A stretch of 64,000 nucleotides of DNA from a virus, in the IMG/VR virus record IMGVR_UViG_3300028801_000007, positions 1 to 64,000 of that record; one strand, 5' to 3'. Under the pieces are notes generated by a model. It ran no database searches. It was not told where the DNA came from and saw nothing but the letters and a program-made list of their open reading frames with translations. Shown here one piece after another: positions 4,881 to 62,201 of the stretch (position 1 is its first letter; every line of letters starts with the position of its first letter). The translations under genes and the position numbers were made by a program.

Positions 4881-5186
4881 CTAAGGTAGAGAGATTTTTG
4901 CGGCGGCACCAACGGCGCTTGTGACCGCACCGGCTACAGCACTGGCACCTGCTGCACCGGCCGCAATCGGGGCAGAGGCGCTGACACCAGCCTCTTGAAA
5001 ATGGATAGCGTAGTTGCCGTTGTTCTCGGTCGCATCGAGACTGAGTGACGTTAAATCTCGGCCGTCTTGCACTAGCGCTTCGCAGCAGACCATTTTCTTG
5101 AGATCGGCGCTGTAGAACGGGCGAACGATATAGGTCGAGCATCCGGATAGGCCAGCGAGCGCCAAGACCAACAGAGCGCGAATCAT
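4881..5186 (-). CDS. Lipoprotein (101 aa)
   Basis: The signal MIRALLVLALAGLSGC gives a lipobox LSGC. A middle section (STYIVRPFYSADLKKMVCCEA) is followed by a Gly/Ala-rich tail that could lie against or in a membrane. The start overlaps the stop of the upstream holin-like gene. Together with 4439-4873 it makes two consecutive lipoproteins after a membrane protein, which fits an envelope disruption module. Confidence 0.7.
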   Translation of the reverse strand: MIRALLVLALAGLSGCSTYIVRPFYSADLKKMVCCEALVQDGRDLTSLSLDATENNGNYAIHFQEAGVSASAPIAAGAAGASAVAGAVTSAVGAAAKISLP

Positions 5187-5410
5187 GCTGCGGGTGCGGC
5201 TGGGACGGCAATCGGAGCAGCGACGACGGCGCCGAACTTGGCTTTGATCGCCATCTGAGCGACGTGCCCGGCGGCCACTGCACCACCGACCAGAAGCGGC
5301 ATAACATCGGCCGGCACCGGATGGCCGAATCCCGTGAAAATCCACTGAATCAAGCCAGCAACCGAGCCCGAGGTGACGGCTACGCCGCCGGTGACAAGTG
5401 CGTTATTCAT
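5183..5410 (-). CDS. Small membrane protein, holin-like
   Basis: This 75-residue protein (start MNNALVTGGV) has two hydrophobic segments, about residues 3-27 and 34-55, and an Ala/Pro/Val tail. Size and topology suit a class II holin or a superinfection-type membrane protein. It is upstream of two lipoproteins and a lipase and downstream of an inserted endonuclease gene. No family motif proves the assignment. Confidence 0.55.
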   Translation of the reverse strand: MNNALVTGGVAVTSGSVAGLIQWIFTGFGHPVPADVMPLLVGGAVAAGHVAQMAIKAKFGAVVAAPIAVPAAPAA

Positions 5411-5490: not shown

Positions 5491-6522
5491 TTAAGCGGAC
5501 AGTATTCGTTCGGGCGGCCATCCTCTGCTATGCCGGAAATATAGCGTTCCAGCTTTCAACCCAAGTTCGCGCGACCACTGCGCAATCGTTAGTCGTTTAC
5601 CTTGGTGCTCAATGAAAACGTTGTTGCGTTTGTTGTTCGCCTGCTCTTCATTGGTCGCCCATTTACAGTTTTCCGGCGAATATCCTTCATTCACACGCTC
5701 TCTCTCCAGTGTCAGGCCCGGCGGCCGCTCCCCCATATCTTGCAGGAAGAATTCGTAACCGCTTCGCCACCGCTCGCAAACGGCGATACCGCGCCCACCA
5801 TATAGGTGAAACTCGCGATACTTCGGGTTCTCGCATCGCGTGCGCATGTCGCGATAGATCGAATACGTACGGTTAAATGCGCTTTTCCGCGAGTGGCCAT
5901 GTTTCGCCCTTGACTGGGCGGCGATTACCTTTTGACATCCGCACGAAGCAGTATGTCCATTGCGAATGTTATCGATATTCGCAACAGTCAGGTTGCCGCA
6001 GTCGCATTGAGCCTCAACCATCCTACCGCGCGCCTGATAACCTGCGCCCCTCACAATCACCAGCTTTCCGAATCTCTGGCCGATAGGCAAAGGAAAGGTT
6101 TCCTGCACTCTTTCCTTCTGGTAGCACCCGCATGACGTCGTCTTGCCTGCGCGGAGGTCTGCGATGGCGGCAACCTTATCCGCTCCGCATACGCACGCGC
6201 ATAAAACTTTACGGCGCGCGCCACTGCCAATCACCTTTCCAGTTTTGATCGTCAATCGACCAAAAACGGATCCGGCGGAAACCGAGGCGATCTTTCCTTC
6301 ATCGGCCATCCTCAGAGCATACGCTTGGGCTGCATCCCGCCTGAGGCAGCCACAGGATTTCTTGATGCCCTTGACCAGTTGTTGGCAACTGGCCTCAGTT
6401 TCAGACCCGCAATCGCAAATGCATCGCACTCTGCGGATATGGAACTTATCGGCCCAAAATGGGCTTGTGACAACGAGCCGGGAGAACCGCGAGCCAATTA
6501 GAGTAAAATCTGACGCAGCCAT
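5491..6522 (-). CDS. Putative homing endonuclease with three zinc ribbons
   Basis: The first two-thirds contain three tandem units of about 60 residues, each starting G-x-x-F-x-R/K-L and ending in a four-Cys ribbon (CICDCG...SCGCL, CACVCG...SCGCY, QCDCGN...SCGCQ). The C-terminal part (YSIYRDMRTRCENPKY through NCKWATNEEQANNKR) is the nuclease-like region shared with the gene at 54152, followed by a short helix-turn-helix-like tail (LTIAQWSRELGLK). The ribbons probably recognise DNA and the C-terminal domain would cut it. It sits inside the lysis cluster as an independent gene, as mobile endonuclease genes do. A dedicated terminator follows. Confidence 0.75.
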   Translation of the reverse strand: MAASDFTLIGSRFSRLVVTSPFWADKFHIRRVRCICDCGSETEASCQQLVKGIKKSCGCLRRDAAQAYALRMADEGKIASVSAGSVFGRLTIKTGKVIGSGARRKVLCACVCGADKVAAIADLRAGKTTSCGCYQKERVQETFPLPIGQRFGKLVIVRGAGYQARGRMVEAQCDCGNLTVANIDNIRNGHTASCGCQKVIAAQSRAKHGHSRKSAFNRTYSIYRDMRTRCENPKYREFHLYGGRGIAVCERWRSGYEFFLQDMGERPPGLTLERERVNEGYSPENCKWATNEEQANNKRNNVFIEHQGKRLTIAQWSRELGLKAGTLYFRHSRGWPPERILSA

Positions 6523-6597: not shown

Positions 6598-7104
6598 CTA
6601 TGGCTGTTTCGTGCCACGAAGCTTTTTGTCTTCGTTCTGCGCGTGGCTTACTGCTTTCGTGATTTCAATCCCAGGCTTCACGGCGCGCAGCGATAGCCAT
6701 ATCGGCAGGGTGATTTCGTGGACTCCGAGATTGACACCGCGATGGTGACCGCCGGGAACGGCGACACCCCCAACCTCATGATGACCGCACAGAACGACGA
6801 GGTTTCGGATATCGTCCGGTGACTCAATCGGCTGCTCGCCCATCTTGTGGGTGTAGCCGTACGGATCGAAGACATGCAGCGTATCCAGCATCTTGTCCGT
6901 ATCTAGCGCTGGAAACAGGCTCCACTCGAAAAGGTGATGAACCTCCCGGTTTTCGCGCGATCCGCAAATCCAGCACGGCACATCAAGCTGCTTGACCAGC
7001 AGCCTCTTGTTTTTGCGAAACTCTGAGGACTCGGTACGATCTTCGTGCGCCGGGTAAACCACGTCTTGAGTCAGGCGTTCAGATTGCTCGTGTTCTTTGG
7101 TCAT
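6598..7104 (-). CDS. HNH nuclease-like protein
   Basis: This 168-residue protein has a CWICG zinc knuckle, the catalytic-type pair REVHHLFEWS and the distal DDIRNLVVLCGHHEV, which is the H-N-H order with its metal ligands. The N-terminal 50 residues are charged. It starts by ATGA overlap with a 46-residue gene and lies in the lysis region. It may be a homing endonuclease or a packaging-type HNH protein; its distance from terminase argues for the former. Confidence 0.75.
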   Translation of the reverse strand: MTKEHEQSERLTQDVVYPAHEDRTESSEFRKNKRLLVKQLDVPCWICGSRENREVHHLFEWSLFPALDTDKMLDTLHVFDPYGYTHKMGEQPIESPDDIRNLVVLCGHHEVGGVAVPGGHHRGVNLGVHEITLPIWLSLRAVKPGIEITKAVSHAQNEDKKLRGTKQP

Positions 7105-7297: not shown

Positions 7298-7591
7298 TCA
7301 GTCTTCCCAATCGGGAATTGGTACTGTCTGGCCTGCGAACTTGTGCGTGCAGTCATCCAGAAACTGGATCATTCCATCGGCGATGAACGAGTGACACACC
7401 GTGTCAGCGCCCTTCCATTGCGACGTGACCAATATGCTTGGTGAAACGGTCGGCTTATCAAGATCCCCGTTGAACGACCAGCAAGGATGACCGCCTCCGG
7501 TGATTCGAATTACGTGCAAGAATTCGCACCCAGGACACTCGAAAAGCATTGCCCGCTCACCGGTGTGATGCATCTGTTCGTGGAATTTCAT
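7298..7591 (-). CDS. DUF6527-like protein
   Basis: The protein (97 aa) holds FECPGCEFLHVIRI, then CWSFNGDLDKPTVSPSILV and HSFIADGMIQFLDDCTH, the conserved pattern I associate with DUF6527, a family frequent in phage genomes next to lysis genes. The Cys and His residues suggest a zinc site. No biochemical role is known to me. It is coupled to the endolysin gene by ATGA. Confidence 0.7.
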   Translation of the reverse strand: MKFHEQMHHTGERAMLFECPGCEFLHVIRITGGGHPCWSFNGDLDKPTVSPSILVTSQWKGADTVCHSFIADGMIQFLDDCTHKFAGQTVPIPDWED

Positions 7592-8199
7592 GCAATTCCC
7601 AATGCGACCTTCGCGGCCCCATAAAGCGCCAAGCGATGCGGATATCCCGTGAGTCCGCCATTTATCACCTTCGTGATCTGGCTAAAATTCTGCGCGTCCG
7701 CGAGTTCGTTGAGGCCGTGATTCGCCCACCACCAAGCCGCCGATAGCGCTGCATTGACCGGTTGTTCGAGTAATTCCGGGTGGGCTACCAAATCAAGGCC
7801 GAGCCCCACCGCCGCCAACGTGTAATTCGTGCGGCCGGTGATCTGAATGCAGCCTCGACCGCGGTAGAGCCATCCGTCACCGCTCGCCTGATCGCCGTTA
7901 CCATTCCGGCCGGCGTAGACGTAGTTCGCGATAGCCTCCGGCTGCCGTGCGTACTGATTGGCCTCGGGCGCATCGAAATGTGTCGGCCAGGTAGCCATCA
8001 GCCCGGCGGCTCCGTAGTTCAGGTTCTCGACCAGAGCGGTTAGACCCGCGCTCTCATGCCCGATCTGGGCCAGGAAAGCGGCTTGGCGCAGTGGTGTATT
8101 GATTTGGAAGCGATCGCAGGCCGCTTGGATCGGCGGTGCCCAGGCTTCGGCGCTGATCGATGTCGCGCCGCAGCCGACTTGAATGACTGATGGCATCAT
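7588..8199 (-). CDS. GH19-type endolysin
   Basis: This 203-residue glycoside hydrolase 19 (chitinase-like) lysozyme would cleave peptidoglycan glycan at the end of infection. The first catalytic Glu lies in AAFLAQIGHESAGL, and YRGRGCIQITGRTNY is the family signature. The C-terminal half (NHGLNELADAQNFSQITKVINGG) completes the fold. There is no signal peptide, so it needs a holin. The ATG at 8199 has GAGG 9 bases upstream and follows the holin-candidate stop by one base. Confidence 0.92.
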   Translation of the reverse strand: MMPSVIQVGCGATSISAEAWAPPIQAACDRFQINTPLRQAAFLAQIGHESAGLTALVENLNYGAAGLMATWPTHFDAPEANQYARQPEAIANYVYAGRNGNGDQASGDGWLYRGRGCIQITGRTNYTLAAVGLGLDLVAHPELLEQPVNAALSAAWWWANHGLNELADAQNFSQITKVINGGLTGYPHRLALYGAAKVALGIA

Positions 8200-8200
8200 T

Positions 8201-8605
8201 TCAATTGCCCTCGTAAATCTTGTATGCGGCCACGATCCACTTCGTCCACTCGGGCAACGAATGGAAAAAGATGTAATGAAAAACGAGATATCCAATCACG
8301 AGCGCCACAAAGCGCTTGGAGAAAATCTGCCTAACACCCCACTCCCAGCCGCGCGCAAGTCGACAAAAGAACCGCGTGGCATTTACGCCGCCATCCCACA
8401 TATCAACGATCGCTGCAGTGCGCTCGCCTTGCAGATCAATCTTTCTGCCAAGCTCAAGAGTCGCGGCGTCCTGGCGCTGCAAGTGGGCCGTTACCTTTGT
8501 CAGCCCATCCATGACATCCACGAATTTCTGGTCGCCGTGCGATAGCGCATTCTCTGCGCGCCCCATTCGGTCCCGCAACTCGTTGATCGCGTCTTGGTCG
8601 TTCAT
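8201..8605 (-). CDS. Holin candidate with coiled coil and one TM
   Basis: The 134-residue protein starts with a charged helix-forming segment (MNDQDAINELRDRMGRAENA), and has one hydrophobic span near residues 98-118 (VALVIGYLVFHYIFF). This resembles XhlA-like or class III phage membrane proteins. It directly precedes the endolysin gene. Holin is the likeliest role from position, but an alternative is the 75-residue protein at 5183-5410. Confidence 0.55.
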   Translation of the reverse strand: MNDQDAINELRDRMGRAENALSHGDQKFVDVMDGLTKVTAHLQRQDAATLELGRKIDLQGERTAAIVDMWDGGVNATRFFCRLARGWEWGVRQIFSKRFVALVIGYLVFHYIFFHSLPEWTKWIVAAYKIYEGN

Positions 8606-54151: not shown

Positions 54152-54817
54152 ATGAACTTAATCGAGATCGAAATGAGAGTGCGAGTCAAGGATCTAGCGG
54201 GGCAAAAATTCGGCCGCCTCTTGGTTGTCGGGTTTGATCGAATTGATGAAAAGCAGAACGCGCGTTGGTTATGCGAATGTGAATGCGGGAAGTCGGTGGT
54301 GATGCGCGGAGCGACTTTGACCGGCGGGAGATCGAGGTCGTGCGGGTGTCTGCAGCGAGAAGCTGCCTCGGCCATGAACACAACGCACGGCGCCACTGCC
54401 GGTGGAAGAAAGGTCAAAGAATACTCGGTGTGGGCATCAATGTTTGCTCGATGCCGAAACCAAAGTGACCCGGCCTATAAGGATTATGGCGCCAGAGGAA
54501 TAGATGTATGTGCCGAATGGGCTAGTTTCGAGCAGTTCATTGCAGACATGGGGCCGAGGCCTTCCGGCGATTATTCAATAGACCGAATCGACAATGATCT
54601 TGGTTACTGCAAAGCGAACTGCAGGTGGGCTACTAGGGCACAGCAGGCAAGAAACAACCGCAGAAATCGTTTCATAAATACGCCATGGGGCGTGATGGTT
54701 CTGACGGACGCCGCCGCTTTGGCTGGAATACATGTGGGGGCCGTGCGAAGCCGGTTGCGTCGTGGGTGGGCTGAGAGCGATTTGCTTAAACCTGTCGAAA
54801 CCAAGCGCAGCACTTAA
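54152..54817 (+). CDS. Zinc-ribbon homing endonuclease (single ribbon)
   Basis: The protein (221 aa; ATG 54173 is an alternative start) has one G-x-x-F-G-R-L...CECECG...SCGC unit and a nuclease-like region (YSVWASMFARCRNQSDPAY, YGARGIDVCAEWASF, YSIDRIDNDLGYCKANCRWA). It ends with a short helix-turn-helix-like segment (LTDAAALAGIHVGAVRSRLR). It is related to the three-ribbon protein at 5491-6522. It stands alone in the early operon. Confidence 0.8.
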   Translation: MNLIEIEMRVRVKDLAGQKFGRLLVVGFDRIDEKQNARWLCECECGKSVVMRGATLTGGRSRSCGCLQREAASAMNTTHGATAGGRKVKEYSVWASMFARCRNQSDPAYKDYGARGIDVCAEWASFEQFIADMGPRPSGDYSIDRIDNDLGYCKANCRWATRAQQARNNRRNRFINTPWGVMVLTDAAALAGIHVGAVRSRLRRGWAESDLLKPVETKRST

Positions 54818-60800: not shown

Positions 60801-62201
60801 ATGAGCAACGAACTTAGCGATAGCCGCGAGGCGTTTGAAAAAATCGAAGCGGCATCGGAATTGTCGCGTGACGAAACCGGCGATTACTCGAATCCTTGCG
60901 TTCAATCTGCATGGGAAGGGTGGCAAGCCGCTCTCGCCCACAAGAGCGAGGGGGCTGTGCCCGTCGCTGCGCCGGTAGATGCGAGCAGCGAGCAGGCGAC
61001 CAGCACCGGGTGGGTGCCCGAAATCTTGGAGGGGCCGGGTGAGAATGTTTGCTACACGCAAGACAACACTCCGCGCGCCGAGCGCAAGGAAATGGTGGTG
61101 ATTTCAGCGGCAGACCACGACAGACTCCGCTATTTCGCGTCGATCGACGAATTTTCTTACGCCGAGGAAACCAAGTTACTCAGCTCGATATCGCCGACAG
61201 TCCTTATCGGTCAACTGCGGAAATTGCGGAAAGATTTAAGGGCAGCAAAAAAGGCGATCGACCCTGCGCCCCATAGCGGTGAGGCTGCGCCCGTGGTGGC
61301 AGATGCGCAAGCCGAGGCGGATTTGAACGCCGTGTACGACGTTTTTGCCATCGGGGCGAAGGCGCGCACGATTTCGACGCTACTTGTGAACTGCCAGAAC
61401 GCCTCGCGCCGTTCAGGTTGCCTATCGGCGATCGAGCGTGAGTTTTTCACGACGGAAGCACCTGCCGAAGACCCCGAAGAAGAAGGCGATACTATCGAGG
61501 TGTGCCCGCTGAGCTGGGGCTCCAACCGGACTGAGTACGTTGAACAGATGCGCGGCGCGCTCGCAGAACGCGAAAGGATTGCGGTCGAAGCATTCAAAGC
61601 CACCGCCTCATCGCAGCACGTGGCTGTGAGTGATCCGGTCGGCCACTTCATCGATGATGCAGCGGACGGCGAGAAACCCCACTATTCGCAGGTCGCCGAG
61701 GTGTTCAAGAGCGCGGCCGATGTGATCCCGCTGTACCGTGCTCCCCTTCCTCGCGCCAGCGATGCGCCTATCGGTGAGGCTGCTGTTTCTGACGACAGTG
61801 CGCGCATCCAAGATTATGCCGAGCAGAACATGCTCACGCTTGAGGAAGCAGCCGACGAATTGCGAGCAGCGCCACGGCATGACCGCGCACCTGCTATCGG
61901 TGAGGCAGGGGGAGTGGTGGCGGAGGAAGTACTAGCTGCCATAAAACTGGCATGTGAATCACGGGATATTGAATTTAATGCCGACACGCCGCGCGCAACC
62001 GTTGGGAGTCTATTTCTCTGGGAAAGAGACAACGCCGCCCAGCCGCAAGCAGCGCCGAGCGGGCTGAGCATGGACCGCATGCGTGAGCTAGCACGCGAAA
62101 CGCTAGACGAAGGGTTCTCAGGCGGATTCTACGAGGAAACGTTGACCCGGCTTATCGGTCGAGCTATCGCTGCTGCTCAGGCTGCCGGGAGCGGAGCGTG
62201 A
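60801..62201 (+). CDS. Long mosaic early protein (466 aa)
   Basis: The N-terminal part has the phage motif SAWEGWQAALAHK. The section 108-157 is the copy shared with the gene at window start (LRYFASIDEFSYAEETKL). Segments are joined by recurring SGEAA/IGEAA/IGEAG linkers, which suggests assembly from modules. QDYAEQNMLTLEEAADELRA is acidic. Function unknown; it resembles Ead/Ea22-like early proteins only in style. Confidence 0.7.
   Translation: MSNELSDSREAFEKIEAASELSRDETGDYSNPCVQSAWEGWQAALAHKSEGAVPVAAPVDASSEQATSTGWVPEILEGPGENVCYTQDNTPRAERKEMVVISAADHDRLRYFASIDEFSYAEETKLLSSISPTVLIGQLRKLRKDLRAAKKAIDPAPHSGEAAPVVADAQAEADLNAVYDVFAIGAKARTISTLLVNCQNASRRSGCLSAIEREFFTTEAPAEDPEEEGDTIEVCPLSWGSNRTEYVEQMRGALAERERIAVEAFKATASSQHVAVSDPVGHFIDDAADGEKPHYSQVAEVFKSAADVIPLYRAPLPRASDAPIGEAAVSDDSARIQDYAEQNMLTLEEAADELRAAPRHDRAPAIGEAGGVVAEEVLAAIKLACESRDIEFNADTPRATVGSLFLWERDNAAQPQAAPSGLSMDRMRELARETLDEGFSGGFYEETLTRLIGRAIAAAQAAGSGA
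61125..61272. repeat. Direct repeat copy B
   Basis: It matches 1-148 in the window with one difference. In this copy it is inside the open reading frame from 60801; upstream of 61125 the comparison cannot be made because the other copy begins at the window edge. Confidence 0.95.

Follow-up and report, generated by a model that had tools for sequence, protein, structure and literature searches.

Three tandem cysteine ribbons preceding an HNH-like nuclease in a phage lysis cassette, and a one-ribbon relative in the same genome

Three-ribbon gene and its one-ribbon relative

The window (the whole stretch of 64,000 nucleotides of viral DNA analysed here) carries on its minus strand a gene for a 343-aa protein, in which ribbon and nuclease HMMs built in this analysis revealed the order R-R-R-nuclease, followed by C-terminal helices, and on its plus strand a gene for a shorter protein with one ribbon. 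The HMM matches spanned residues 7-64, 82-138 and 146-199 for the ribbons and 207-316 for the nuclease. The features of the two genes are as follows.

5491..6522, minus strand: three-ribbon endonuclease gene, 343-aa ORF recognised by the ribbon and nuclease HMMs
6325..6504, minus strand: ribbon unit 1, residues 7-66, located by HMM, with C36, C38, C57 and C59; AlphaFold2 pLDDT mostly >79
6103..6279, minus strand: ribbon unit 2, residues 82-140, located by HMM, with C110, C112, C131 and C133
5914..6087, minus strand: ribbon unit 3, residues 146-203, located by HMM, with C173, C175, C194 and C196
5608..5907, minus strand: nuclease domain, about residues 206-305, with the motif [DE]R...Y...NCxWAT..EQ..N
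5494..5607, minus strand: C-terminal beta hairpin and two to three helices, HTH-like, about residues 306-343, from the AlphaFold2 secondary structure
54152..54817, plus strand: one-ribbon relative, 221 aa, with the ribbon at about 54191-54370 and the nuclease at about 54383-54709

By profile match, the three-ribbon protein was assigned to PHROG 374 'HNH endonuclease' (E 1.2e-78, in three stretches comprising ribbon and nuclease), and no model in Pfam or NCBIfam recognised it. The protein encoded at 54152 also matched PHROG 374 (E 3.2e-66), and the nuclease regions of the two proteins were 35% identical over 135 aa (E 7e-23). Scanning the window in six frames revealed exactly four CxC...CGC motifs, three of which lay in the 5491-6522 ORF and the fourth in that at 54152; among 20,000 shuffles of the protein, one such motif occurred in five and three motifs in none. 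The single motif and the nuclease identity of the 54152 gene were in good agreement with the initial annotation, which had ascribed to it one ribbon and the same nuclease region.

Homology and predicted fold of the ribbons

The ribbon unit is a C4 module of approximately 57 residues, of which the three-ribbon protein contains three homologous copies. When units 1-3 and the 54152 unit were compared pairwise by the Smith-Waterman method against shuffles with the Cys residues fixed in place, z values of 5.5-8.6 were obtained, and none of the 500 fixed-Cys shuffles matched any observed inter-unit score. The four units are therefore homologous beyond their Cys residues. In the set of 255 ribbons, conservation reached 99-100% for all four Cys in C-x-C-G...S-C-G-C and 87% for the extra first Cys of CxCxC; unit 3 lacks only this less conserved residue, having A171 in its place.

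The AlphaFold2 model of the ribbon array (mean pLDDT 85) showed a strand-strand-strand-helix-helix (βββαα) arrangement in all three units, with a pTM of 0.51 that leaves their relative orientation uncertain. Unit 2 had remained unmodelled in the first whole-protein model because the alignment was thin there, and its structure was obtained only with a multi-ribbon alignment. In the whole-protein model, the C-terminal hairpin and helices were predicted with pLDDT >90. Foldseek searches of the PDB with the whole-protein model and with the ribbon array gave no meaningful match. The initial description of three tandem units in front of the nuclease was thus supported in concert by the ORF, the four-motif scan, the shuffles, the HMMs and the array model, and the three copies share one predicted ribbon fold. 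The 'beads on a string' repeat-domain homing endonucleases likewise have a series of homologous C4 modules on the N-terminal side of a single nuclease.

Nuclease domain

The nuclease domain of the three-ribbon protein keeps E273-R274, Y281, N285, C286, W288, Q294 and N297, and the R, Y and N of the motif were found in 100% of the PHROG 374-type members (n=194). AlphaFold2 predicted a ββα arrangement with strands at 271-274 and 286-289 and a helix at 291-296 (pLDDT >93). The sole match of the nuclease-family profile among the PDB sequences was I-HmuI (1U3E), which aligned weakly over the motif (E 0.25). In 194/194 family members, Arg stands where HNH enzymes have their canonical His, the catalytic residue of the D-H pair; because [DE]-R takes the place of D-H in all of them, we refer to the domain as HNH-like rather than HNH. 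A His-Gly pair upstream of the motif was well conserved across the family where it could be aligned.

The first motif position is D in 80% and E in 18% of the 194 members, the three-ribbon protein having E273; its R276 occupies a position at which 93% of the members have D or N. A dead nuclease, suspected from ERER instead of DRID, was not supported: with E in 18% of the members, and with the invariant residues retained, the domain is not plainly dead.

Origin of the array

The initial annotation had described the ribbon as internally triplicated. No sign of duplication in situ was found: the best match of each unit in the 255-ribbon set was a ribbon in another protein, the units being closer to ribbons of unrelated proteins than to one another, and the same-protein units, which are 32-40% identical, ranked only 92-160 of 254 for each other. 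Self-comparison of the DNA of the three-ribbon gene detected no repeat between the units. These ranks, together with the absence of a DNA repeat, argue against a recent internal triplication. The array thus appears to be either old or put together from different ribbons, and its three units probably go back to a pool of ribbons that phage nucleases exchange, having either been collected from this pool or diverged inside it.

A true duplication in situ can look different. On plasmid2 of Calothrix sp. NIES-4105 (AP018292; L301 1486-2274), four places matched the ribbon, and a 262-aa protein is built entirely from four ribbons that are visibly alike. When 244 cyanobacterial genomes were searched for long arrays made of ribbons alone, just two matches were obtained at E 1e-10, both on the scale of a single unit.

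Unit numbers and partner domains in relatives

Consensus proteins served as search queries. Relatives were found in 1021 phage records. The nuclease family is very common in phages, the usual number of ribbons being one and three being uncommon. In IMG/VR nuclease frames selected by the nuclease alone, no ribbon was present in 9/75, one in 63/75 and two in 3/75, and the pooled sample comprised 185 R-N, six R-R-N and one R-R-R-N protein, the last being the three-ribbon gene itself; these proportions are rough because the samples depend on the search patterns that shaped them. Four ribbons precede a PHROG 374-type nuclease in gp083 of Vibrio phage qdvp001, and two were found in Rhizobium phage RHph_N3_2, C. 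difficile phage phiCDKH02 and Enterococcus phage EfV12-phi1. The same nuclease can therefore carry from zero to four ribbons among the relatives. In phiCDKH02 (L299 1489-2316), the two-ribbon endonuclease is annotated as a dUTPase, a label shared by other matching records.

The ribbon HMM also identified one to four ribbons preceding other domains. One of these is a Vsr-like PD-(D/E)XK domain (L031, L036, L038, L041, L081 and L042), which was assigned by its motif, with a weak match to Pfam DUF2726. The others are Endonuclease VII (L053, Pfam E 8.7e-21), an HNH_3 domain followed by AP2-like tails (L061), a different HNH recognised by motif (L045) and an AP2-like domain whose match was below the cut-off (L074), and ribbons also occurred alone, i.e., without a catalytic domain. 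One protein carries a fused pair, R-N-R-N (L017 58-1341). Since zero to four units occur on one nuclease and other domains stand behind the ribbon, the ribbon is an accessory module shuffled among phage nucleases, and its partners include five or more other domains, catalytic or DNA-binding; the modular form suggested in the initial annotation was in this respect upheld.

The first nuclease motif of the fused protein is divergent, with CVLVPLHNH replacing CRWATxxEQ. Members of the nuclease family are scattered over many genomic positions, one of them being downstream of a major capsid gene. In E. coli phage U1G (L304 1501-2157), a one-ribbon member is flanked on either side by a gene annotated as 'DNA polymerase I', which is a typical position of a homing endonuclease.

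Genome and lysis cassette

The 101,250-bp record to which the window belongs resembles two joined phages: bases 1-148 occur again at 61125-61272, the part at 62166-101250 is bounded by another 148-bp terminal repeat, and short stretches of homology are common to the two parts. The first genome is closed at ~61.1 kb by an independent contig that spans the first junction. Both ribbon genes lie inside this genome, which rules out that they belong to different phages of a fused record. The 100% identical locus L004/G001 was rejected as independent evidence, being the same phage in another assembly, and was used solely for showing genome closure. A third relative with ribbon and nuclease, in a 170-aa frame, was found in the second phage of the record (G000 69750-70160; L003).

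The three-ribbon gene resides in a lysis cassette in the order endolysin, small gene, PHROG 8048 HNH, three-ribbon gene, holin-like small gene and lipase-like gene. The features surrounding it are listed below.

7588..8208, minus strand: endolysin, the lysis-cassette marker (PHROG 181, E 1.4e-85)
6598..7104, minus strand: PHROG 8048 HNH protein, the upstream flank, with relatives in L255 and L270
6519..6587, minus strand: two hairpins upstream of the three-ribbon gene, the second pairing the GGAG ribosome-binding site and the start codon
5465..5480, minus strand: intrinsic terminator ACCCGCTTCGGCGGGT-ATTTTTTT, 11 bp past the stop codon of the three-ribbon gene
5183..5410, minus strand: small downstream gene with the start AGGAGCATCAATG, holin-like by position, the same start being found in L255 and L268

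The small gene had no PHROG match. The PHROG 8048 HNH protein is a steady member of the cassettes of L255, L270 and the 64-kb stretch, at very low identity. On the strand of the three-ribbon gene, no sigma-70 promoter for it was detected. The upstream hairpins had a minimum free energy of -30.3 kcal/mol (z -3.68; none of 200 shuffles was as stable), and the predicted hairpin over the ribosome-binding site and start codon suggests that translation may be timed. Control of translation by a hairpin occurs in some T4 homing endonucleases.

The three-ribbon gene is missing from three related cassettes. In L255, 9 bp separate the end of the PHROG 8048 relative from the conserved AGGAGCATCAATG start; the matching place in L268 holds an ORF that runs into this same start; and the L270 cassette lacks the gene as well. 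The flanks of these empty sites have diverged, with 63-76% amino-acid identity for the holin-like gene. For the HNH relative upstream, identity is about 25% in L255 and L270, and in L268 this relative is recognised by position only. Because of this divergence, the insertion point appears approximate rather than exact, and the direction, gain or loss, is not fixed. The 54152 gene is likewise missing beside the phrog_210 gene in two relatives whose upstream genes are 72-86% identical. Since each is absent from the corresponding place in relatives, both ribbon genes appear to be patchy insertions, as expected of free-standing homing endonuclease genes.

Proposed role and rival explanations

We consider it fairly probable that the three-ribbon gene is a free-standing phage homing-type endonuclease gene situated between an HNH-like gene and the following small gene of the lysis cassette. 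Its absence from the matching site of diverged relatives, the terminator of its own and the hairpin predicted over its start speak for this reading. Published work on related modules is the ground for assigning the ribbons a putative role in DNA binding, and recognition of a longer site through the three ribbons, the extended recognition envisaged at the outset, is plausible. Each ribbon would bind one zinc via the Cys residues of C-x-C-G...S-C-G-C and contact a short stretch of DNA, and three ribbons on short linkers would jointly anchor the protein over a longer site. Most likely, the ribbons would hold the protein near its target in the lysis region of a gene-less phage, where the C-terminal nuclease would nick or cut nearby; repair would then copy the three-ribbon gene into the cut phage.

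The main rival to this homing role is that the ribbons serve as a spacer or ruler, fixing how far the nuclease stands from a C-terminal DNA-binding part and contributing little sequence specificity, as has been described for the zinc finger of I-TevI, which acts as a linker regulator and not as a DNA-binding domain (PMC10448857). The predicted C-terminal helical element could indeed be the main DNA reader, and most relatives have one ribbon or, in 9/75 nuclease frames, none. The ribbons are, however, N-terminal to the nuclease and not between the nuclease and the HTH, and the four-unit protein of the Calothrix plasmid is free of a nuclease; the existence of nuclease-free ribbon proteins suggests that the ribbons have a function of their own. 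On balance, a spacer role seems unlikely.

We regard it as less likely still that the protein is a domesticated regulator, i.e., a repressor or activator near lysis genes whose nuclease has been weakened or lost. Such an origin has a precedent in CapR, which was domesticated from endonuclease DNA-binding domains (PMC10448857), and it would fit both the location of the gene directly upstream of a lysis-cassette gene and the E273 and R276 substitutions in the nuclease motif. Yet E is found at the first motif position in 18% of the members, and R274, Y281 and N285, the invariant residues, are all retained; moreover, since the gene is followed by a terminator of its own and related cassettes lack the gene, lysis control appears to be independent of it. 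HNH-type phage proteins encoded near terminase genes take part in DNA maturation and packaging in other phages, and a packaging-associated HNH protein of the HK97 gp74 type, serving DNA maturation instead of homing, would be another reading. It is very improbable for a gene that lies in the lysis cassette, is absent from relatives and belongs to a family scattered over many positions.

Implications for ribbon arrays

One ribbon versus three with the same nuclease in a single phage genome provides a clean natural comparison of unit number and site length. A broader reading, which we put forward with considerable reserve, is that the ribbon may be a general phage DNA-reading module unrecognised by Pfam, whose unit number would set the length of the site, ribbon-only arrays being nuclease-free readers. 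If so, such arrays (e.g., the four-unit Calothrix protein) would constitute a natural array system of possible use in engineering. The ribbon is common to several unrelated phage nucleases, yet it has no Pfam model of its own, and many such genes are therefore labelled hypothetical or misnamed.

Comparison with known systems

Phage homing endonucleases with repeated zinc-finger DNA-binding domains have been described before (PMC10448857; PMC12350094), and the idea is thus not new. The T5orf172 homing endonucleases contain repeated CapR/DUF723/DUF4379 zinc-finger domains arranged as 'beads on a string', and it is through zinc fingers of the CapR type that homing endonucleases, and likewise the ICP1 capsid repressor CapR, bind DNA (Barth, Dunham, Seed 2023, PMC10448857). 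The three-ribbon protein resembles this system in having several Cys zinc-finger modules of ~60 aa in tandem, N-terminal to one nuclease, as well as in the variable unit number, the swapping of modules between phage genes and the occurrence of free-standing genes near essential genes. It differs in the nuclease, which is GIY-YIG in T5orf172 and PHROG 374 HNH-like here, and in the Cys spacing, CapR being CxxC...CxC (PMC10448857) and the ribbons CxC...CxC.

Pfam CapR PF21817 did not match the three-ribbon protein, reached E 0.043 with the 54152 gene, short of the cut-off, and had no match in four genomes carrying the ribbon family; nor was CapR found in 299 Pseudomonadota genomes at E 1e-5. With hhalign, no profile-profile relation was found between the ribbon and DUF723-like repeats, and one comparison with the ICP1 CapR domains gave E 0.0084 but a probability of 4.8%, the Cys register being similar, so that a relation of the ribbon to ICP1 CapR is only suggestive.

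In phage introns, three to five CapR-like domains accompany Vsr-like (EDxHD/Vsr) homing endonucleases (NAR 2025 gkaf761, PMC12350094). These domains, of ~60 aa and followed by one nuclease, were proposed to be NUMOD-like DNA-binding modules, and ribbon plus Vsr-like proteins of this type were detected with our ribbon HMM (L031, L036, L038, L041 and L081). They differ in their nuclease domain and in being intronic, whereas the three-ribbon gene is intergenic. The same ribbon and the same nuclease are shared by the PHROG 374 / 3377 'HNH endonuclease' proteins (Pseudomonas phage D3 orf78, U1G gp49 and qdvp001 gp083), which, unlike the three-ribbon protein, mostly have one ribbon. The HNH homing endonuclease I-HmuI (1U3E) aligns over the nuclease motif but has D-H where the family has [DE]-R. 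Finally, eukaryotic C2H2 zinc-finger arrays showed no sequence relation to the ribbons, which are CxC...CxC and predicted to be beta-rich, but both embody the idea of small zinc modules placed in series.
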